From Ferroplasma acidarmanus Fer1 (lineage in GTDB: Archaea; Thermoplasmatota; Thermoplasmata; Thermoplasmatales; Thermoplasmataceae): a stretch of 64,000 bases of DNA. Made by a program: the position numbers and the translations under genes. Each line of letters opens with the position of its first letter. Positions within the stretch are counted from its first letter, which is position 1. Of this stretch, positions 3,201 to 63,661 are shown piece after piece. The stretch spans positions 1,860,001 through 1,924,000 of the forward strand of contig NC_021592.1 of NCBI RefSeq assembly GCF_000152265.2, written 5' to 3'. Below the pieces are notes generated by a model that saw nothing but the letters and a program-made list of their open reading frames with translations, had not been told where the DNA came from and did no database searches.

Positions 3201-3766
3201 ATAATGTTAAAAATAAATCATTATATTTAAATATTATGTCATTTGATAATAGAATATCATTCATAATTTGTTATAAATATTAATTATTCCCTGTATTTTT
3301 AGAAAAATAAAGAGAACAGCATTGCTGAAGTTTTGCTATGTGCATTATATAATTATATAGGCCATATCAGGTGCATTTGCCTGATTCCTGGGCTTTATCC
3401 CTTTTCCATCAATTCATACTGATTTTTCTTATCTTGCATAGCCTTTACCAATAATATTACTGAATTTACCCGTTTTGATAAAAAATACCGGGAATCAGAG
3501 ACTGTTGGATTTTAATCCCGCCTTCTAAGTCTTTTTTAATTTCGTTTATTTATAACTCTATCTTGATAGAAACTGTTTTGATTACCAGGAGTATTCCATC
3601 TATTTCATTCCTCTTTTTTGTACAATCAGAAAAATTAAATCTGAACAATTAATAAATATATAACAATACAATCAAAAATTTACTGATAATGAAATAAAAT
3701 TTTAAATTCGCCTGAGACCCATTGACAATTTGAATTATTAAGCACAGCAATTACATTTCCGCTATT
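3201..3766. other. Long intergenic stretch, nothing recognised
   Basis: About 570 bp of AT-rich DNA without a convincing gene, tRNA or repeat. A few short open runs on the minus strand (for example around 3400-3470) look like eroded coding sequence but match nothing identifiable. Confidence 0.6.
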
Positions 3767-5089
3767 TCATGATGGAAGTACGTTACTGAGTTTTTCCAGG
3801 TACTGTGGCAGTATTGGCTCATCAAGTTTCCAGATTATGCTCACAGGGTTGCTTCCAGTATGCCTGACATGACGTACCCGCCCCAGGAATACATACGGAG
3901 AAGCGCCGAGGTCATTCTCCCTGTATTCCCTGGTAAATAGTAAAATTTTATGTTCCTGGCCCGTCTCGCCAAAATATCTTCTGGCCGTATCTGAATCCGA
4001 TGATACAGTACTCTGTGTTTGCCAGTGAAACTCATTCTCATTAATTGCATAATCCTTATACATAGTAGTGGGTGAATATGATTTTTCCTCCTTGTGAACG
4101 GTAACAAGCAAGATATCTATCTTCTTTTCCTTAATATATTTCACTCCTTCACGCATGGAAGCCGGGTCCATAATATCCAGTGCTCCAAGAATTTGATTTC
4201 TCGAATACTCACTGTGTACATGAAGTGGAATATCACCATTGATATTTTTAGAAGATTCAACAAAGTTAATTGTTGATAATAAATATAACAATAGGTCTTT
4301 CAACTCGGAAAACAGAACGGGATATGTACTTATTTCATTGAGTGCATCAAGGGAATTGGCATAATTTAGCTTCTCCGGTGGACTGTTGTATATTGTGAAA
4401 TAAAACATATTGACCATCCTGCGCTCTGTTGCACTTAACTCTTCCCATGTTTTATTATTTTCTTCCAGAGTTTTTTCTATGAATGAAATCCATGAATAGG
4501 AATTGATCTGGCAGATTCTTTTGAATGCCCCTGCCATGGTTTTTTCTATATCTTCATTAAAGTTATCTATTACTCCTGCATTGGCGCAAAGTCTGGAAAA
4601 TGTATTTTTCGAGTATATAATTTCCGGGGTTATATGATAATATTCTAAAAAGTTTTGAAGTGTCAGGGGAAGGCCTGAATGGGCTTTAAAATTCCTGATC
4701 TTTATAACCAGCCCTGATGAAGACTGGAAAGATTTTTTTATATTTTCCAGTATATATTTTTGAGCCTTTTCTTCCAGTTCAATATAACAATCTCCGGGCA
4801 GATGTGAAAATCCATTGGTAATCTCGTTCCCTGGATCCATATAGCCGTCTTTCAAAAGAGCAAGGTATTTCTCTGTAAAATTATAATTCTGGTTTGCCTT
4901 CCCAATAAAATCTAACACTGTGAGGCAATCTTTCCCATCAAAAAGCCGTAGCCCACGACCCAGTTGCTGGATAAATACTGTCAGGCTCTCTGTTGGCCGC
5001 AGAAATAATACTGTATTTATTTCCGGTATATCTACGCCTTCGTTATACAAATCAACGGCGAAAATTACTTTAATTTCACGATCCCCTCG
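3767..5089 (-). pseudogene. 3' half of a PLD-DEAD helicase-DUF3427 gene, split by TnpB element
   Basis: This is the C-terminal half of the helicase whose N-terminal half lies at 6294-8186. It begins in the second RecA-like domain: VDLYNEGVDIP and QQLGRGLR are helicase motifs V and VI (arginine finger). The remaining ~350 residues correspond to the long C-terminal region found in DUF3427-type helicases. A TTG at 5092, created partly by the inserted element, could give a 441-residue product, but that product lacks the ATP-binding domain and so could not act as a helicase. Taking the element as 5090-6293 joins the halves in frame (KLVF followed by RGDREIKV). The family is common in archaeal and bacterial defence islands. 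Confidence 0.85.
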
Positions 5090-16130: not shown

Positions 16131-16517
16131 GTGTCATTTAGTGAAGCTGAAATTTTAAAGAAAAGAGCCAATGATTTTCTAGAAGAGGGTGCACACTTAA
16201 TAGATATTAAAAAATATGACCTTGCAATCTTTAATCTGGATCAATATTGCGAATTAATTTTAAAATATAAAATCCTGACAAAATTGGGTTTCTATCTTGA
16301 TACACATTCATTAAAAGAATTAATAAATAAATTATCCGAGTTTGATGATAATATAAAAGACCTTGTTAATAATGAGAAAGATTTACTTTATATAGGCAGG
16401 TTAACAGACGCTTATATTTCTGCAAGATATATGCCGTTTGAATTTGACGAAAAAGAAACAAAAAATGTATATAAATTTATAGTAGAGGTATTTAATAGAT
16501 ATGTCAATAGAATATGA
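16131..16517 (+). CDS. HEPN-domain toxin of a HEPN-MNT pair
   Basis: 128 residues, all helical. The pattern ANDFLEEGAHLIDIKKYDLA followed by AYISARYMP matches the HEPN domain proteins paired with minimal nucleotidyltransferases. In studied pairs HEPN is an RNase toxin and MNT silences it by nucleotidylation. The classical R-x4-6-H motif is not obvious; the C-terminal YISARY segment stands in the usual place of the R-x4-x-Y variant. GTG start at 16131 is preceded by AAGAGGAT, a plausible ribosome-binding site. The MNT gene overlaps its 3' end by 17 nt, indicating translational coupling. Confidence 0.85.
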   Translation: MSFSEAEILKKRANDFLEEGAHLIDIKKYDLAIFNLDQYCELILKYKILTKLGFYLDTHSLKELINKLSEFDDNIKDLVNNEKDLLYIGRLTDAYISARYMPFEFDEKETKNVYKFIVEVFNRYVNRI

Positions 16518-16815
16518 GTTAAAAAAATTAAATTATCTGAAAAATTATCGGGAAGTGTGCAAAGAAGTTTATATATTTGTAAAAAACATAGATAATAATG
16601 CACGGGTTTTCGTTTTCGGGTCAGTTTTAACTGGAAATACAACCGCATCAAGTGATATAGATATACTGGTGCTGGAAAGTAATAAGAACTTAAAAGATGA
16701 AATAAATATTAAAGTGTTGAAGTATATTGATGCGCCTGTGGAATTACATATCGTGGATAATAATGGCCTCAACTGGTATAAAAGATTTTTAGATAATATT
16801 GAAGAAATCACATAA
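16501..16815 (+). CDS. MNT-domain nucleotidyltransferase antitoxin
   Basis: 104 residues with the nucleotidyltransferase signature VFGSVLTGNTTASSDIDILV (GSx10-12DxD) at about 39-58 and a later acidic residue in VELHIVD that may complete the metal site. The length is normal for minimal nucleotidyltransferases. It overlaps the HEPN gene by 17 nt in another frame. The usual gene order is variable; here the toxin comes first. Start ATG 16501. Confidence 0.88.
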   Translation: MSIEYELKKLNYLKNYREVCKEVYIFVKNIDNNARVFVFGSVLTGNTTASSDIDILVLESNKNLKDEINIKVLKYIDAPVELHIVDNNGLNWYKRFLDNIEEIT

Positions 16816-48178: not shown

Positions 48179-48784
48179 TTAATTATCTGAATCATTTAAA
48201 ATTTTCTTTATAGGTAGATGCTCCTTATTATTAATAAACAGTGAAAGTTCATCGTTATCTGGAATATTATTTTCAAATGATGGTAATTCATCTTCAAGAC
48301 TTACTTTAAAAAATATAAATATAATATTATCAGCATATACATTTTTATTGTTATTAACACCCTGTATTTTGGATGCATAAATATGATCACAGTTAATTAA
48401 CTGCTTCCCAATTTTAAACTTATATGTATTTCCCCTTGCTTTAAAATCATCATTCATTTTATTAATCATATCAAATGGTTCTTTATTATCTAAGTCGGTT
48501 ATATAAATTAGCTGTAATTGTTCCATTGCCTGAACAATTAGCGGTAAGGATTTTGTCATCAGTTTTAATAGATTATATTTCCCATCTTCAATTTTGATTG
48601 CCATTTTTTTAGTATTATACCGGGTATCCTGGATGAAGTTTCTTAAAAAATTAGTCTCGGCTTTATTTTTATTTGCGTTGCTGAAGTTATAAGTGGATAT
48701 ATCTTTTTCACTGTATTTATTTTTAACTAGATATTTTATAAATTGATAATCGTGATTGCCCTCCAGCATTATAAGTTTCTTCAA
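48179..48784 (-). CDS. TOPRIM-like effector of a two-gene ATPase system
   Basis: 201 residues. LIMLEGNHDYQFIKYLV resembles TOPRIM motif 1 (the catalytic Glu in xEGxxD) and LIYITDLDNKEP the DxD motif, the two metal-binding signatures of OLD-family and PARIS AriB-type proteins. The start is TTG 48784 immediately after the ATPase stop (ATG 48769 is an alternative), so the two are coupled. In characterised relatives the ATPase senses infection and releases the nuclease. TOPRIM assignment rests on two short motifs; a different Rossmann-like fold is possible. Confidence 0.65.
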   Translation of the reverse strand: MKKLIMLEGNHDYQFIKYLVKNKYSEKDISTYNFSNANKNKAETNFLRNFIQDTRYNTKKMAIKIEDGKYNLLKLMTKSLPLIVQAMEQLQLIYITDLDNKEPFDMINKMNDDFKARGNTYKFKIGKQLINCDHIYASKIQGVNNNKNVYADNIIFIFFKVSLEDELPSFENNIPDNDELSLFINNKEHLPIKKILNDSDN

Positions 48785-49996
48785 TTATATTCCCCGTAAA
48801 TCAAGTAATAGGTCTTCCATATCAGAAACAGCATCATTATAATCTAAATTGGATAATATTATGTCATCTTTCCATTTAGAAAATTGCAAAATTAAAAGTT
48901 CCTTTTTTAAAAATTCTATATCCTTTTCAGGTAGAGCGTCGTCGGAAATCAGCGTATAAAGAAAATCCTGGCTATGTGTGGTAATAAATAGCTGAACATG
49001 GCTGTTATTTGCAATTGAAATAATGTAATGAATTAGTTCCCTTATATACCCAGGGTGCATATAATTTTCAGGCTCTTCAATTACAATTATGTCGCCTTCA
49101 TTGTCATACAATTTTATAAGAATATGAACAAGGGATTTAAATCCATCACCCATAGATTCTACAGGAATTTCTTGATCTCCCTCTTCTGTGTCCAATACAA
49201 TCGAGTAGAAATCAAATCTTTTCAGATTTGGTATGATATTATCTTTTTTAATTATATTTTCCACCTGTAATGCAAGTTTTTGGCTTTTATGAAAAAATTC
49301 TGCCGAGAGCAATGTATCATTAATAAATGTTACATTGTCCTTTTTGTCTATTATAAACGAATCATTCCTAGTTAAAGGGTAACGATATCTTAGCATATTA
49401 AGCCTATCTCTAAATTCCATCCTATTGCTATTTGATTTGCCGGTTGCGGAATTTTTTTCATTTTTAGATATATAAGTATCATATAATTTAGATAATGTAT
49501 CTATAAGTAAATCATTATATCTTTCCGCTGTTAAAATTACTGGGTGGTCTGAATAGTTAACTAAAACTGCAATAGAATCAAGGGATGCTTCATAAATACT
49601 ATCTTTGTCAAGAACTTTAATAATTTTTTCAACATCAATATACCTACCTATATCCACATATACGTTATCTTTTTTAATGGACAACTCGTTTAAATCGTTT
49701 TTAAGCAAATTAAGAATTTGCTCAGGAGTTGGATTTCGAAGATTCAGTTTTTTAACCTTATTATCATCTGTATCAATTTTTATTGAAGCCTTATCACTTG
49801 AATAATTGATAAAAAAAGGTCCATATTTATACATCAATAAATCTTTTATTAAGTTGGGGTTCGTGCAGACAGAAATAGCTTCAAGAATAGAAGTTTTTCC
49901 GGTATTATTTCTACCGACGAGAACATTAAATTTCTTTGGTGTGATTTCTAGAGAATTAATTCCTTTAAAATTTTTTATAGCAATATGCTTTATCAT
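48785..49996 (-). CDS. AAA15/OLD-like ABC-type ATPase
   Basis: 403 residues. Walker A NVLVGRNNTGKTSILEAI at about 26-43; Walker B IIVIEEPENYMHPG and the His switch in LFITTHSQDFL near the C-terminus; the middle is a helical insert (about 90-280). This is the SMC/OLD-type ATPase seen in OLD, Gabija, PARIS and retron systems. Unlike single-chain OLD nucleases it ends without a TOPRIM domain, which is on the next gene. Flanked by the truncated transposase and the AbiE pair, in an IS-bounded accessory island. Confidence 0.88.
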   Translation of the reverse strand: MIKHIAIKNFKGINSLEITPKKFNVLVGRNNTGKTSILEAISVCTNPNLIKDLLMYKYGPFFINYSSDKASIKIDTDDNKVKKLNLRNPTPEQILNLLKNDLNELSIKKDNVYVDIGRYIDVEKIIKVLDKDSIYEASLDSIAVLVNYSDHPVILTAERYNDLLIDTLSKLYDTYISKNEKNSATGKSNSNRMEFRDRLNMLRYRYPLTRNDSFIIDKKDNVTFINDTLLSAEFFHKSQKLALQVENIIKKDNIIPNLKRFDFYSIVLDTEEGDQEIPVESMGDGFKSLVHILIKLYDNEGDIIVIEEPENYMHPGYIRELIHYIISIANNSHVQLFITTHSQDFLYTLISDDALPEKDIEFLKKELLILQFSKWKDDIILSNLDYNDAVSDMEDLLLDLRGI

Positions 49997-50174: not shown

Positions 50175-50771
50175 GTGAATACTATTAACTTACTTGATAC
50201 AATTAAAAATGACTATAAAGGTATATTCAGAACATATGATATAGAAATCATAGAAAATAGCAATATAAGGTATTCATCACTGGTAGCAAATCGTTTAGTA
50301 AAACACGGCTATGCAAAAAGGGCAGGCAGGAATAATTTCTATATGCCCGGGACAGATATATTTACTATCGCATCCAATATTCTGGAACCATCGTATATAG
50401 GCATATCATCTGCTTTTTCTTATTATGACCTGGTAACCCAGATATACAATACAATATATGTTATTTCACCAAAAAGGCATAAGGATGTAGAAATTGAAGG
50501 GTATAAAATAAAATTTATAACATTAAAGAACACTAAAGTTTATGGTTACCATATAGATAAAAATACATATATTTCTATTTCCGATCCGGAAAAAGCAATA
50601 GTTGATTCTGTATATTTATCAAACCCGCCTATTGCATATATAGAAGAAGCCCTTGATAACGGGATTAGAAATAAATTAATAAATATAGATAAATTATTAT
50701 TTTATTCAGAAAAAATGCATTCAAAAAAAACATATGAAATAATTCTAGCATTAATAAATAAAAGGCGGTGA
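50175..50771 (+). CDS. abiEi: AbiEi-type antitoxin
   Basis: 198 residues. N-terminal winged helix (FRTYDIEIIENSNIRYSSLV and ANRLVKHGYAKRAGRNNFY) and a C-terminal part with ISDPEKAIVDSVYLSNPP, both typical of AbiEi proteins, which repress their own operon and counter the toxin. GTG start at 50175; a TATA-like CATAAATACTTA lies around 50148-50159. The toxin gene begins 4 bp after its stop. Confidence 0.88.
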   Translation: MNTINLLDTIKNDYKGIFRTYDIEIIENSNIRYSSLVANRLVKHGYAKRAGRNNFYMPGTDIFTIASNILEPSYIGISSAFSYYDLVTQIYNTIYVISPKRHKDVEIEGYKIKFITLKNTKVYGYHIDKNTYISISDPEKAIVDSVYLSNPPIAYIEEALDNGIRNKLINIDKLLFYSEKMHSKKTYEIILALINKRR

Positions 50772-50775
50772 TTTT

Positions 50776-51657
50776 ATGAATAATAATATTGAAATCAAGA
50801 AGTGGAAGAATTACACAAAAATTATGGGATTTAAAAATTCATACAGTACGGAAAAGGATTATCTGCAGGAAATTGTTCTAAACAGTCTTTTTTATGTTAG
50901 TCCAGTTGAAGATATAATATTTATTGGTGGCACTGCTATATCAAAAATTTATGGTTCAGGGAGATTTTCAGAGGATCTTGACTTTATTTTTGATAAAAGT
51001 TATGATACATCTGATGTAGAAAATAGAGTTAAAAAAGCTATTAATGAAGTTAATAATTTTTATCCTATAGAGTATAGTACCCTTAAAAGAAGAGATATGC
51101 TTAGATACAATTTAAAAATTAAAGGGCCTTTTTATGAAATGTCCCATAGTGTAAGGGCAATACAGTCCATAAAACTTGATATAAATTTGTATGTACGGCC
51201 ATTTTATAATCCTAAAAAGGTTTTAAGAACTACAATTTATCCGGAAATAAGGCCCTATTTTCTTTTTACATTAGAGACAGAAGAATTCGCAGCAGAAAAA
51301 ATAAAAGCTATTATGGAGAGAAAAAACCCTGTTGCCTGGGATTTATATGATTTATGGCTCCTAATCACAAAATATAATGTTAAAATAAATATGGAAATGA
51401 TAAATTATAAACTGCAAAAATATACGCAAGTTCAAGGATTTAATATAGATGAATTCCTGGAAAAAGTAATGCTAATAGGGGATATCTGGAATACAGAAAT
51501 GGAAAGTTTATTGAATGTAGTTATCCCGTTTAATACTGGTGTGTCCCCTCTAAATTTGGACACTTTTGATGATATGGTTAGATTAATAAAATCCTTTATT
51601 TTGCTGTATCTCCATAGGCGAACCTTATCATCATATTTTTACAGTATATCCGTGTGA
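50776..51657 (+). CDS. abiEii: AbiEii-type nucleotidyltransferase toxin
   Basis: 293 residues. GGTAISKIYGSGRFSEDLDF is the AbiEii/DUF1814 nucleotidyltransferase motif (G-G-T then S-x-D-x-D-F), and ETEEFAAEKIKAIMERKNP is the second conserved block with the catalytic Lys. The toxin transfers nucleotides, probably to tRNA or GTP-bound targets, and gives abortive infection in known cases. Preceded by AGGCGGTGAT as a ribosome-binding site. Its C-terminal end has a decayed duplicate at 52471. Confidence 0.9.
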   Translation: MNNNIEIKKWKNYTKIMGFKNSYSTEKDYLQEIVLNSLFYVSPVEDIIFIGGTAISKIYGSGRFSEDLDFIFDKSYDTSDVENRVKKAINEVNNFYPIEYSTLKRRDMLRYNLKIKGPFYEMSHSVRAIQSIKLDINLYVRPFYNPKKVLRTTIYPEIRPYFLFTLETEEFAAEKIKAIMERKNPVAWDLYDLWLLITKYNVKINMEMINYKLQKYTQVQGFNIDEFLEKVMLIGDIWNTEMESLLNVVIPFNTGVSPLNLDTFDDMVRLIKSFILLYLHRRTLSSYFYSISV

Positions 51658-56328: not shown

Positions 56329-56523
56329 ATGTGCACCTTCTGTTATCCTGAATCATCTGCTATCTTGCAGTATGTTACTATTGGCCTTATTACCATTTTT
56401 ACCTTATTGTTTGTATATTCAACGGAGCTGCTTATCATCAATATAATAAATTACAAATTTTCACCTTGGTTGACCCATTTCTATAAAGGGAATATATGGA
56501 TTCAAAGAGAGGAAATGAACTAA
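56329..56523 (+). CDS. Possible small membrane protein
   Basis: 64 residues with one long hydrophobic segment (about 15-40, VTIGLITIFTLLFVYSTELL) and a charged tail. TATA-like GTATATATAT lies upstream at about 56309-56317, closer than ideal. No family recognised. Could be chance, given the AT-rich sequence. Confidence 0.3.
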   Translation: MCTFCYPESSAILQYVTIGLITIFTLLFVYSTELLIINIINYKFSPWLTHFYKGNIWIQREEMN

Positions 56524-56554
56524 GTTTGGATCAGGTGCAAAGCCGGATTGGTGG

Positions 56555-56617
56555 AATAAACTCTCGGCAAGAGAATTTATATTGTAAGTATATAGCACAA
56601 GGAATCGTGCTACATAC
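56555..56617 (+). ncRNA. Two tandem hairpins, candidate leader or small RNA
   Basis: Hairpin 1 (56555-56583): AATAAACTCT, loop CGGCA, AGAGAATTTATATT, pairing with a small bulge. Hairpin 2 (56588-56617): GTATATAGCAC, loop AAGGAATC, GTGCTACATAC, 10 of 11 positions paired. They end 46 nt before ATG 56664. They could regulate that gene, form a small RNA, or be a protein-binding palindrome. No known family recognised; not a tRNA. Confidence 0.4.
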
Positions 56618-56663: not shown

Positions 56664-58046
56664 ATGGGAAGGCATGAGGATATAAAGGAATTATGTTCGC
56701 GTATATTGAACTACTACTATGTTGATGCTGATACTGAGTACCCAATATATGGAGACCAAAGAATAGATGTTGTGGGTTACCGCACAAATAAAGCCGATCC
56801 CGACATCGGAATAGAGGTTGAACTTACAAGCCATTTTCAACACGACGCGTCTAAACTCGCAAACACATCCAGTTTCCAGTTAAGATTTATTGTAACAGAA
56901 AATTCTGATACTTTGTCTATGGGGCCAATTACAAAAATTAACGAAAAAGTCATTGATATTGTACAACCACCCGATATAGATATGTCTTTCGAGAAGAAGG
57001 TGAGGGAATTTACAAATCAAAATGATAGGCCTTGGTATAATTATAAACAACCTTCTATGTCATCAGAAAGTGACAGGGATATACTCCCAGATTTTATTAA
57101 AGATATACAATACCAGAGACTCAACGTTAATGCAGCCGAGGATGTATTGTTCCGGGCTGCATTAGGTGGTATTCGCATGGGCGTCTACAAACAGGGGAGG
57201 ATTAATACAGAATATCATGGAGGTAATCCCACAAAGGAAATACTATATTTAAGTGCACAGGGTCTAATTTTGGAGGATAGGCCAGGAAGAAACTATGAAA
57301 CGGGAAGGCAATCTGTATATTATATATCAGATAACGGCCGCAGCTTAGCCTCGAAAATCATAGAAGAAAGGGTAGACCATAATATTGATGGCCTGTATAG
57401 TGTTAGGGAAAAGTATGGCTTCCCTGTTCTACTTATATCTTTAATTGGCGGGGGTGGAAACATTCTGGACTGGGATGATACCCCATATTCAAGCGTTGGT
57501 GACCAGTATTCATACATGTCCACATCAGTGAATTCAATACCCCGAGATTTAGTTGAAAAATTCAATATCCCTTCGAATCTGTATTCTCAAATGGTTCTCG
57601 TTGCTAACTCACCACTTTTTAGAGATATCGTTCGAGAAATATACAGGGATCTGATAGCAGCAGGGCTTGGGAACGAAACTGTATATGTTAGCTCCAGGGG
57701 CGATATATCTAAAGCATACGTTGTTCCTTTGCATACATTGCTCCAACAGCTCAACGTATCGGAAGGCCTATCGCATATGGGAAAATTGAAATCTTATGCA
57801 GAATGGCTGATACTAAGAGGGCATAATCCAGTAGTGCCATCCACACTATATGACGCATTTAAAGGTATCGGGTCAGATGTTCATAACGTAGAGAACCTGG
57901 TAGATAAATTATCGTCAGTAGAGATAACTTCAAGGCTACTGAAAAATGGCCCTAATACTATGGCAATTTACGATCAGACAAAATTCAATGATTTCTGTGA
58001 GAACGAAATGAAAACAATACTTAAAGATATTCTTGAAAATGATTAG
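56664..58046 (+). CDS. Hypothetical protein with PD-(D/E)XK-like N-terminus
   Basis: 460 residues. The N-terminal 70 carry YPIYGDQRIDVVGYR (D35) and DIGIEVELTSHFQHDASKL (E51, E53, K64), the alpha-beta arrangement of the nuclease-like fold, although the usual E-x-K is E-x-E. Next comes a segment like a winged helix (about 160-235, AGDVLFRAALGGIRMG-type, here AEDVLFRAALGGIRMG, then LYLSAQGLILEDR). The remaining ~220 residues are unassigned. May be a nuclease-helix-turn-helix defence or regulatory protein. ATG 56664 follows two hairpins. Convergent with the HEPN-like gene. Confidence 0.6.
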   Translation: MGRHEDIKELCSRILNYYYVDADTEYPIYGDQRIDVVGYRTNKADPDIGIEVELTSHFQHDASKLANTSSFQLRFIVTENSDTLSMGPITKINEKVIDIVQPPDIDMSFEKKVREFTNQNDRPWYNYKQPSMSSESDRDILPDFIKDIQYQRLNVNAAEDVLFRAALGGIRMGVYKQGRINTEYHGGNPTKEILYLSAQGLILEDRPGRNYETGRQSVYYISDNGRSLASKIIEERVDHNIDGLYSVREKYGFPVLLISLIGGGGNILDWDDTPYSSVGDQYSYMSTSVNSIPRDLVEKFNIPSNLYSQMVLVANSPLFRDIVREIYRDLIAAGLGNETVYVSSRGDISKAYVVPLHTLLQQLNVSEGLSHMGKLKSYAEWLILRGHNPVVPSTLYDAFKGIGSDVHNVENLVDKLSSVEITSRLLKNGPNTMAIYDQTKFNDFCENEMKTILKDILEND

Positions 58047-58243: not shown

Positions 58244-59479
58244 TCAATTTTGAGTATCTCCCCACAATGGCCTCGCTAATATACATTGTAATACAGTGGA
58301 TGTAGGTAAGAAGAAATCATCAAACCATTCTGAAATGCTAGGCTCTCTTACAATATTTGAATGTGCATAGTCATTGAGTCGGGAATATATTTCCGAATAA
58401 ATTATGTCGCCAAAATAACCAGTTACATGCTTCCCTATTAGAGCAAATGAATCTATAATGCATGAATTAATGCTCTCCAGTTCATCCTTTTGTAATTGAA
58501 CTTTTATGAGATTAGACATTAACCTGGTATCAGGCCTTGAAATCAACGCATAAATCGTTGCTTTATTATCACAATAATCACATAAACCAGTTACTGTTTC
58601 ATCATCGAATTCCGGTCCGGTGAACATCAATGACTTAATGTTTTGTATTGATTCAGTGGATGAATTCTCATTAATGCTGATTTTCTTTTTTAAACTTTCC
58701 GATAATTCAACTTCATGATTCCCACAAGCTCTCAAAGAAAACTCGTCACTACTCAGTAACATTAAATAGAAATATTCAACATTGCCAAAAACCTCTTTTT
58801 TAATTGTGGACCACCCATCACTATCAATATATTTTATCGTATTCATAAAAAATATACCAAGTGAATTTTCCAAGAAATGTTTTATTTTTTTCTCCTTTTT
58901 TGATGTTTTAGTATAATCCAAACCCAATTCTGAAAATATTTCCGGGTAAAATTTTTCCGATACTGCATGCAAAGAGCTTTTAACAGATTTCCTATCTACA
59001 TTAGATTCTAACGTAGAAAGAACTAAATCATCCAGATTTAAAGGTGTCAATTTTCCCCAATACCCAGAAAAAAAGGCATTAGCAAATGGATTTATACTAT
59101 CTTTATTTTTTATATCCTCAGGACTCCATGACGAAACAGTAAATAAACCTGCAAAAAGGAGATCTAATGCTGATCTAATTCCCCTTAAGGAATATTTAAT
59201 ATATCCTTCCCCAGCCAACTTGACCGAAATTGATAACTCTCCAAAAATATCTTCAAGTAAAAGTTTAAAGTAGCTCTCGGTTTTATTCCTTGTATTGTCT
59301 TTAGAAATATTTTCCAAATACCATGAATAATTCTCAAACAGTTCATGTAAAGTTGAAATGGCTTTTGAAATCTCCGGGTAAGTAGGATAGGGAACATTGA
59401 AAATTTCATAAAAATCCTTGGGAAAATATCCACTATGTGCCCATTGTGTGATACGTATTATATCCATTTGTTCAGTCAT
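58244..59479 (-). CDS. Large unknown protein with C-terminal HEPN-type RNase motif
   Basis: 411 residues. Near the C-terminus IYSEIYSRLNDYAHSNI fits the HEPN catalytic pattern R-x4-6-H (R367, H373), with a polar Asn close to Arg as common in defence HEPN RNases. A Cys pair (C300, C303, CDYCDNKA) just upstream may bind zinc or mark the domain border. The helical N-terminal part includes LRGIRSALDLLFAGLF. No family recognised overall. It is not beside an MNT gene. Could be an abortive-infection protein; inference from motif only. Confidence 0.6.
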   Translation of the reverse strand: MTEQMDIIRITQWAHSGYFPKDFYEIFNVPYPTYPEISKAISTLHELFENYSWYLENISKDNTRNKTESYFKLLLEDIFGELSISVKLAGEGYIKYSLRGIRSALDLLFAGLFTVSSWSPEDIKNKDSINPFANAFFSGYWGKLTPLNLDDLVLSTLESNVDRKSVKSSLHAVSEKFYPEIFSELGLDYTKTSKKEKKIKHFLENSLGIFFMNTIKYIDSDGWSTIKKEVFGNVEYFYLMLLSSDEFSLRACGNHEVELSESLKKKISINENSSTESIQNIKSLMFTGPEFDDETVTGLCDYCDNKATIYALISRPDTRLMSNLIKVQLQKDELESINSCIIDSFALIGKHVTGYFGDIIYSEIYSRLNDYAHSNIVREPSISEWFDDFFLPTSTVLQCILARPLWGDTQN

Positions 59480-61432: not shown

Positions 61433-61477
61433 ATGTTAGATAAATTGAAACTGTAAAAATCTTAATTGCACATTAAA

Positions 61478-61951
61478 ATGTTAAAGTTTGTATGTGCTCG
61501 TATAAATTATAGTACGTATAATGGGATAACTCCACATTATCATCGAAATATTTTTAATAGGCATTTTCCATATGGAAGAGTGGTTACATATGTCACAACT
61601 GATTCAACATTAACAGGAGTAGGCAAATATGCCCAGGATCTATATCTTTTGCTCGCACCCGAAAGCAAAATATACCAGTTTCTTTTTAACCGCAAATTTT
61701 TAGATAGTTTTTATGAGAAACCATATATCGGATTCAAATCACCCTTATTGAATTATACTATCTCAGGGATGGCATTCAAATCCGGAATAAATACTATAAA
61801 CCATACTAATGATATAATACACATAACATCACAAACTATAAAGCCTGTTTTTAGAAATAAAAAAATGGTAATTACAATCCATGATGTCATTCCATTTCAC
61901 AGGAATATAGAAAATGATAGTACTATGGAAAATATAAAACAACATTTCATA
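61478..61951 (+). pseudogene. GT4 glycosyltransferase, 5' part, split by IS5-type insertion
   Basis: 158 codons up to the insertion. YVTTDSTLTGVGKYAQDLYL is the N-terminal GT-B motif of GT4 and MVITIHDVIPFHRN the following strand; the frame then meets TAG at the border. Removing the IS and one copy of the target duplication joins it in frame to 63002 (QHFI followed by KKYIKEY), restoring a 377-residue protein. ATG 61478 preferred over TTG 61466. The split must have happened recently. Confidence 0.9.
61942..61951 (+). repeat. 10-bp target duplication, left copy
   Basis: ACATTTCATA directly before the IS end; an identical copy is at 62992-63001. Confidence 0.9.
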
Positions 61952-62991
61952 TAGTGTGTTGCATAATTCATTTTAATTTAATAATTATCCCATAATAAAT
62001 TTAAAACTTAAAAGGAAAACCCCTATATAGTGAAATATAGGGGCGATTTGCTTTGACACCACAAATCAATAATAAAATAAATAGAAGTATAAAAAGATAC
62101 TGGATTGGTTCCAACAGAAGATGGGAAAAGTATAATGAATCACTTGTAGACAGGGTGGAATACCTTACAGATTTATCATTTATAAAGGATTATGATACTC
62201 TATTAGAGGAAAAGAATAGTGGAAAAATAGGCCATCCATACAAAGTTCCTGATGCATTGATAATGTATTTAGCAAGATTAAGATCTATATTTAATGTACC
62301 GTTCAGGTCACTTGAAGGGATATTGAGATCCTTAGCAATTATAACAGGAATAAAATCAATATCATACAGTGAAATATTCAGGAGGATAAGGAGAATTCAG
62401 CCAGAATTGAATAATACTAACAGTAAACTGGATTGCATTATAGATTCTACTGGATATAAGATAACAATAAGGGGAGATTACTTAGGCCATAAATGGCATA
62501 AGAAAAGGAAGGGATGGATAAAATTACATGTAATAATATCATTGAAGGATGTTAATGTATTATCATTTACTATAACAGATGAGCATACACATGACTCTAA
62601 GGCTGCTAGAAAACTATTGAGTAAGATGAAAAATAATATTCTAAGAATATTTGGGGATAAGGGATACGATTCAAAGTATATCTATAATATGTTCGGATAT
62701 AATGCAGTAATACCACCCAGGAAAAATGCTTCTACTAAATCCAGAGGTTCATCTGCAAGGGCTAAGATTGTAAGATATATTAAAAAGAATTCTATGGAAC
62801 AGTGGAAGGAGAATAATAGCTATGGTAAAAGGTGGATTGTAGAAATATATTTTTCAGGATTAAAGAGGGTAATGTCAGAGGTTATTAAAGCTAAGAAAAT
62901 AGAGTATATTATACAGGAATTAGCTCTTAAGGTTGTTAATTACAATATTATGAGGGGGATGACACATGCATATTAATTATACAACACACTA
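61952..62991 (+). mobile_element. IS5-type insertion sequence, 1040 bp
   Basis: Terminal inverted repeats of about 17 bp: TAGTGTGTTGCATAATT at the left and, inverted, TAGTGTGTTGTATAATT at the right, one mismatch. Flanked by the 10-bp duplication ACATTTCATA. Contains one complete transposase gene. All parts are intact, so the element is likely active or very recently arrived. Confidence 0.9.
62053..62976 (+). CDS. IS5-family DDE transposase
   Basis: 307 residues. DDE triad visible: D in CIIDSTGYKI (about 135), D in FGDKGYDS (about 198) and E in RWIVEIYFSGLKRVM (about 275, the Y-x2-R-like helix). Length and terminal repeats match IS5-group elements. TTG start 62053; no ATG is available in frame upstream. 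It is transcribed in the same direction as the interrupted glycosyltransferase. Confidence 0.9.
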   Translation: MTPQINNKINRSIKRYWIGSNRRWEKYNESLVDRVEYLTDLSFIKDYDTLLEEKNSGKIGHPYKVPDALIMYLARLRSIFNVPFRSLEGILRSLAIITGIKSISYSEIFRRIRRIQPELNNTNSKLDCIIDSTGYKITIRGDYLGHKWHKKRKGWIKLHVIISLKDVNVLSFTITDEHTHDSKAARKLLSKMKNNILRIFGDKGYDSKYIYNMFGYNAVIPPRKNASTKSRGSSARAKIVRYIKKNSMEQWKENNSYGKRWIVEIYFSGLKRVMSEVIKAKKIEYIIQELALKVVNYNIMRGMTHAY

Positions 62992-63001: not shown

Positions 63002-63661
63002 AAAAAGTATATTAAAGAATATCTGAAATATGATAACATTGTTACACTGACATCACACATCAAAAATCAGTTAATATCGGAATTCAAAGTAAACGATAAA
63101 AATATCACCGTTATTCCACCTTACATTCCAAACTCTTTTTTTCCGATGTCCAGCAAAGAACAATTGCGGAAAGAATTAGGTCTCCCTCTGGATAAAAAAC
63201 TCATACTATCTGTATCATCTGACCAGCCGAGAAAGAATATCCCCATGGTTAAAAGTGTGATGGATAATCTGGATAGCTCCTTCAAACTTGTCCGGGTAGG
63301 TATTCCGGTAGGTGATAGCATTACATTCAATGACGTGGATACTGTAAAAATAAATAAAATATACAATGCTTCAGACATGTTATTCCTTCCAACACTTGAA
63401 GAAGGTTTTGGCTATCCGGTGGTTGAAGCTTTTAAAACAGGGTTGCCTGTGCTTACATCAAACATAGATGTAATTAAAGAAGTTTCAAACGGGGCTGCAT
63501 TGCTTGTAAACCCTGAGGAATTAAAGGAAAATGTGGAAGGTATATACGGTATAATGGACAACCACGAATATTATGTAAAAAAAGGCTATGAAAGGGCAAA
63601 ATATTATGCTTCTTCAACTATAAAGGAAAAATTAATCTCATATTATAATGGCATTTTATAA
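62992..63661 (+). pseudogene. GT4 glycosyltransferase, 3' part
   Basis: Open from the right copy of the target duplication. Holds LILSVSSDQPRKNIPMV (donor-site strand) and LPTLEEGFGYPVVEAFKTG, the complete E-x7-E motif of retaining GT4 enzymes. A start at 63146 could give a 171-residue fragment without the acceptor domain, presumably inactive. Bases 62992-63001 are the duplicated target. Confidence 0.9.

Follow-up and report, generated by a model that had tools for sequence, protein, structure and literature searches.

The gene at 58244..59479 (minus strand) of the window, by which we mean the whole 64,000-nucleotide stretch of Ferroplasma acidarmanus Fer1 DNA analyzed here, behaves in comparative analysis as a working gene, and it belongs to a small family that is patchily distributed in the Thermoplasmatales. 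Its 411-residue product, P0001, is very probably a stand-alone, zinc-containing helical protein of a variable island, probably of a defence type, leaving its mechanism aside. An earlier note on this DNA took the string RLNDYAH near its C-terminal end for the active site of a HEPN RNase. That string by itself carries almost no information, and its Arg is replaced in the relatives of P0001.

A working gene with few relatives

The open reading frame of 411 codons on the minus strand is intact, and its product is unrecognised, as the earlier note had said. The protein has no homologue in named families: the P0001 family finds no match (HEPN, Abi or other) in Pfam, NCBIfam, PADLOC or PHROGs, and a PDB sequence search with P0001 returns no significant relative. 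Compared with two orthologues, each 63% identical to it, P0001 has a dN/dS of ~0.22 (dN 0.255/dS 1.18 and dN 0.269/dS 1.17), and because of this ratio we take it to be a real, working gene, under purifying selection by this measure.

The family has five intact members in 5 of the 117 genomes of the order, plus one decayed copy. All intact members fall within one Thermoplasmatales family (genomes G000, G024, G016, G053 and G045); G053 is a Thermoplasmata MAG, and the G016 copy has coordinates identical to those in CP009479 (uncultured archaeon ASS_A1). The decayed copy is found in a genome of the same genus (G008), and a C-terminal scrap in G024. The four other intact orthologues are 63, 63, 29 and 27% identical to P0001 in the alignment, and identity across all five ranges over 27-73%. 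No further members appear in phylum- and class-wide genome scans, plasmid records, phage records or viral contigs. The matches that the homologue search reports at E-values of 0.003-1 look like chance hits (kinase-like, TetR-type regulator and thioredoxin-reductase-like proteins, and other unrelated proteins or frames), and we rejected them.

A patchy distribution, nearby transposases, a decayed copy and a scrap are what one might expect of mobile-element cargo, or of an accessory gene without any defence role, for instance one derived from a virus or plasmid. A dN/dS of ~0.2 argues against this, and so does the lack of any relative in the phage and plasmid records and viral contigs. We consider this explanation unlikely.

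How informative is an Rx4-6H string?

The string RLNDYAH is indeed present at residues 367-373, within YSRLNDYAH (residues 365-373; 58361..58387, minus strand). In the five intact orthologues Y365, L368, N369, Y371 and H373 are invariant, and H373 is the only invariant His among the seven in P0001. R367 is not invariant. The earlier note proposed a HEPN RNase using R367 and looked to conservation in homologues as a test; across the five aligned sequences residue 367 varies (R, K, K, E, E), and there the claim fails. The two orthologues that are 63% identical to P0001 (L002 and L003) have no R in the 4-6 residues ahead of H373.

Nor do the counts bear out a motif above chance level: one or more Rx4-6H matches turn up in 44.5% of composition shuffles. 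P0001 itself has three matches, starting at R9, R250 and R367, and the pattern occurs in 22 of the 53 window ORFs of at least 100 aa and in 14 of the 28 of at least 300 aa. Whatever becomes of the HEPN-like reading that we discuss below, half of the larger ORFs of the window have an Rx4-6H string, and finding one in a single protein does not count as evidence for HEPN.

The residue that comes right after the HEPN motif Arg is typically N, D or H (PMC3710099). In P0001 the residue following R367 is the invariant L368, and N369 comes one further on. A canonical HEPN motif with a four-residue spacer reads RNxxxH (we base this alignment on the spacing in PMC3710099 and on the RNDIMHSN of a protein encoded at L098 17295-18116, described below). 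Because the invariant stretch is L368-N369-x-Y371-x-H373, aligning it to RNxxxH would put a Leu at the place of the catalytic Arg.

What would speak for a canonical HEPN RNase, with R367 and H373 catalytic and acting as a stand-alone abortive-infection toxin, is that the string exists, that H373 is invariant, and that clade 2 of the family, which reads RELNPYxH, also has an Arg near the motif. But that Arg sits one residue earlier, on a different face of the helix, and the remaining evidence goes the other way: the variable column 367, the Leu after it, the high base rate of the pattern, and the lack of any HEPN family or fold match. We rejected this reading on column conservation and base rate, and it is in our judgment highly improbable. 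Since R367 is replaced in relatives, P0001 is not a classical HEPN RNase. The suggestion of a stand-alone abortive-infection RNase with its own sensor domain is favoured by the lone gene, a conserved Cys/His site of its own, the patchy distribution and the variable setting near AbiE and AAA/AriA-like genes; against the RNase part stand a varying R367 and the lack of a family match, of a significant PDB relative and of a Foldseek match.

The loss of a conserved R removes the canonical RNase, and the literature allows that it does not remove every HEPN-like fold, because HEPN families that have the H but no R are known, such as Parep1/8 and c2405 (PMC3710099); in Parep1/8, other conserved basic residues are present (PMC3710099). 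P0001 can be likened to these R-less families (Parep1/8, c2405/AbiTii) by description rather than by sequence, in that the His is kept and the motif Arg is lost.

Helical ends and a probable zinc site

AF2 models of P0001 and of a clade-2 orthologue (L004), built on five sequences only, are poor, with mean pLDDT of 54.9 and 65.0, respectively. The two share helices that are predicted with confidence towards either terminus, while the middle is of low confidence. In the low-confidence P0001 model, helices are predicted at 62-90, 94-117, 331-347, 356-372 and 382-401. Foldseek against PDB and viral models gives no match with E below 1. The models suggest an N-terminal helical core at residues 35-117 (helices 35-56, 62-90 and 94-117; 59129..59377, minus strand), which is the best-conserved region of the protein, and a C-terminal helical core at residues 318-401 (58277..58528, minus strand). 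The latter includes RLNDYAH.

The N-terminal core carries a hairpin signature, GEGYIKYSLRGIRSALD, at residues 90-106 (59162..59212, minus strand). It follows the pattern GEGY..SL..IRS..D, in which G90, E91, G92, Y93, S97, R102, S103 and D106 are invariant in the five intact orthologues. R102 is, together with R315, one of the only two invariant Args among the eleven of P0001.

Between the two cores, C252-x2-H255 (58715..58726, minus strand) and C300-x2-C303 (58571..58582, minus strand) appear in the alignment as the two halves of a probable zinc site. Position 255 is H/H/H/C/C across the orthologues, E256 is invariant, and the spacing of the second pair is x4 in two orthologues. From the His/Cys swap at 255 and the paired Cys/His spacing, we infer that C252, [HC]255, C300 and C303 likely form a zinc site. 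The CxxC noticed before is there, as CDYC at C300-C303, and sits 64 residues ahead of R367. In Cxorf38, a HEPN domain is known to contain an inserted Zn ribbon (PMC3710099).

The conserved Cys/His quartet with its swap at 255, the many invariant residues of a structural type (G, P, W, Y) and the lack of a recognisable enzyme family would all fit a non-catalytic zinc-containing helical protein, such as a nucleic-acid-binding regulator, a scaffold or a sensor, in which the conserved polar residues are structural. This is a serious possibility, if short of a probable one. Against it, the invariant R102, D106, N369, Y371 and H373 are grouped into two motifs that resemble those of DUF5677, which goes beyond what structure alone would lead one to expect.

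Resemblance to DUF5677 and DUF4145

From the members of DUF5677 (PF18928) that we examined, a hairpin GG[FY]..GA..R.R[ST]L[HY]E and a C-terminal [YF]..A[SCT]...H can be read off, and P0001 has similar motifs in the same order. The resemblance can be written as G-[FY]-x2-[GAS]-..-R[ST]-x2-[DE] followed by [YF]-x2-x-[SNCT]-x3-H. Three DUF5677 proteins of other Thermoplasmatota show the hairpin ..R-x3-[DE] and later Y-x2-x-[SN]-x3-H. A bipartite pattern, which we wrote post hoc and loosened after inspecting P0001, its orthologues and the three DUF5677 proteins, matches among 253 ORFs only its eight source proteins (the P0001 family and those three). We also ran the two halves separately on nine DUF5677 plasmid proteins that had been held out: the one for the hairpin matches 8 of 9 (vs. 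2 of 133 background ORFs) and the strict C-terminal one 3 of 9 (vs. 0 of 133). In the other six, [YF]-x2-A-[CST]-x3-H can be seen by eye.

DUF5677 proteins are similar in size to P0001, and their genes are likewise stand-alone and accessory; they lie on plasmids, in some cases with AbiEii, TIR or methyltransferase genes close by. Different from them, P0001 has the Cys/His zinc-type site, and IRS..D in the place of RT.HE. P0001's own genome has no DUF5677 match.

DUF4145 is a HEPN family (PMC3710099). The DUF4145-like HEPN proteins of the Thermoplasmatales (PF13643; for example L071 and L079) have a hairpin, G-x-F/Y..S....IRSA-x-D, that is nearly identical to that of P0001 over 15 residues; proteins of the same species are among those that carry it. 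They differ in their length (226-243 aa), in a C-terminal RxxGNFSAH and in having no zinc-type site, and the scores are low as well, with E = 0.22 for the A1 profile and a probability of 0.3% in HHalign. A genuine HEPN protein of the same genome is encoded elsewhere in the window, in a HEPN + nucleotidyltransferase (MNT) pair with a 17-base overlap (16131-16815, plus strand): it has 128 aa, its own nucleotidyltransferase and a clear family match (PF05168, E 4.5e-19), whereas P0001 has 411 aa and is alone.

HHalign and HMMER both pair the P0001 hairpin, at scores below significance, with DUF5677 and with a same-species DUF4145-like protein. HHalign gives the P0001 family a probability of ~0.3% against DUF5677 and DUF4145-like alignments, and also against PF05168 (HEPN-T) members, none of them significant, and the DUF5677 profile has no match at E <= 10 for any of the five members. 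Because these scores are below significance, the DUF5677/DUF4145 resemblance is, at the level of sequence, a lead and not a membership. A distant HEPN-like relationship with an R-less fold is possible, and we keep it so because H373 is invariant and because of the motif-level resemblance to DUF5677 and DUF4145.

The comparisons show that the gene is selected, conserved and exchangeable; taking fold, zinc, target and activity as things that we infer, the proposal would run as follows. P0001 would be an accessory protein that stands alone, from a small family of the Thermoplasmatales, and its gene would be exchangeable cargo of a variable region rich in defence genes. Its N-terminal hairpin and three C-terminal helices would pack as a DUF5677/DUF4145-like (HEPN-like) bundle, interrupted by the zinc-bearing middle region. 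H373 and N369, perhaps with R102/D106 of the hairpin rather than with R367, would border a polar site for the binding, or putative cleavage, of RNA or another nucleotide-containing target, and the variable middle region may sense infection and trigger that site. The proposal as a whole, with its bundle, polar site and sensing middle region, we advance tentatively, as a reading with more chance of being wrong than right. A bolder version is correspondingly doubtful: an R-less, HEPN-like (DUF5677-related) archaeal effector family, with an RNase site made of R102/D106 and Y..LNxYxH, and with the zinc module and the fast-evolving middle acting as a virus sensor in a single-gene defence. If the HEPN-like reading is true, the uncharacterised DUF5677 group would become linked to HEPN-like proteins, and in P0001 the Thermoplasmatales would have a candidate effector for defence by a single gene, equipped with a zinc module of its own.

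Genomic setting

P0001 has AbiE and AAA/AriA-like genes within ~10 kb of it in the window: an AbiEi/AbiEii toxin-antitoxin pair (50175-51657, plus strand) and an AAA ATPase resembling AbiLi/AriA/PDC-M38A (48179-49996, minus strand). Downstream of the ATPase there is a DUF3226-like (sub-threshold) partner, and the two may constitute a two-gene defence system.

Another genome of the same species (G151) keeps the flanks, with a VTT-domain gene on one side and a DUF2079 gene plus a glycosyltransferase on the other, without P0001 and without the convergent gene beside it. In their place it has sugar-nucleotide genes, a DUF6791-ThiF gene followed by DUF6527 (L098 10496-12059), and a transposase. We take this DUF6791-ThiF + DUF6527 pair to resemble Bub-type ubiquitin-like systems, here in an archaeon. 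The region of P0001 is variable within the species, rich in defence genes and exchangeable. AbiE, the AbiLi/AriA-like ATPase, a transposase and the same-species replacement all support placing P0001 in a defence region.

Among the other orthologue loci, one (L016) adjoins a type IIG-like methylase and an HKD (PLD)/SNF2 helicase, and another (L017) lies ~5 kb from Cas1. Around L018 and L019 no defence gene is obvious. The first two loci speak for a defence setting, the last two against it. No neighbour family recurs across the orthologue loci, and therefore P0001 would act alone or with unlinked partners. This agrees with what had been said of it before, that the gene stands alone and has no nucleotidyltransferase next to it.

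The convergent neighbour of P0001 encodes an unnamed 460-aa protein (56664-58046, plus strand) with no family match. We rejected it as an operon partner on its own distribution: it is found in 10 of the 117 genomes, only two of them (G000 and G016) in common with P0001, and in G016 it lies far from the P0001 orthologue. By eye, its N-terminal RIDVVGYR..GIEVELTS resembles a PD-(D/E)xK nuclease core. Close by, at 56480-56588, there is a 109-bp sequence that recurs seven more times in the genome, at 81% identity.

Further along G151, roughly where the window has AbiEi/AbiEii, there is a DUF4145-like gene together with a possibly ApeA-like HEPN gene. The protein encoded at L098 17295-18116 has 273 aa, a weak, sub-cut-off match to ApeA-like HEPN, and the string LRNDIMHS, which is a canonical Rx4H; it is a better candidate for a HEPN RNase than P0001. 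Finally, the glycosyltransferase region of the window (61466-61954, 62053-62976 and 63146-63661) is apparently interrupted by the insertion of a DDE transposase, and the same region is continuous in G151 (L098 ~3361-4524).
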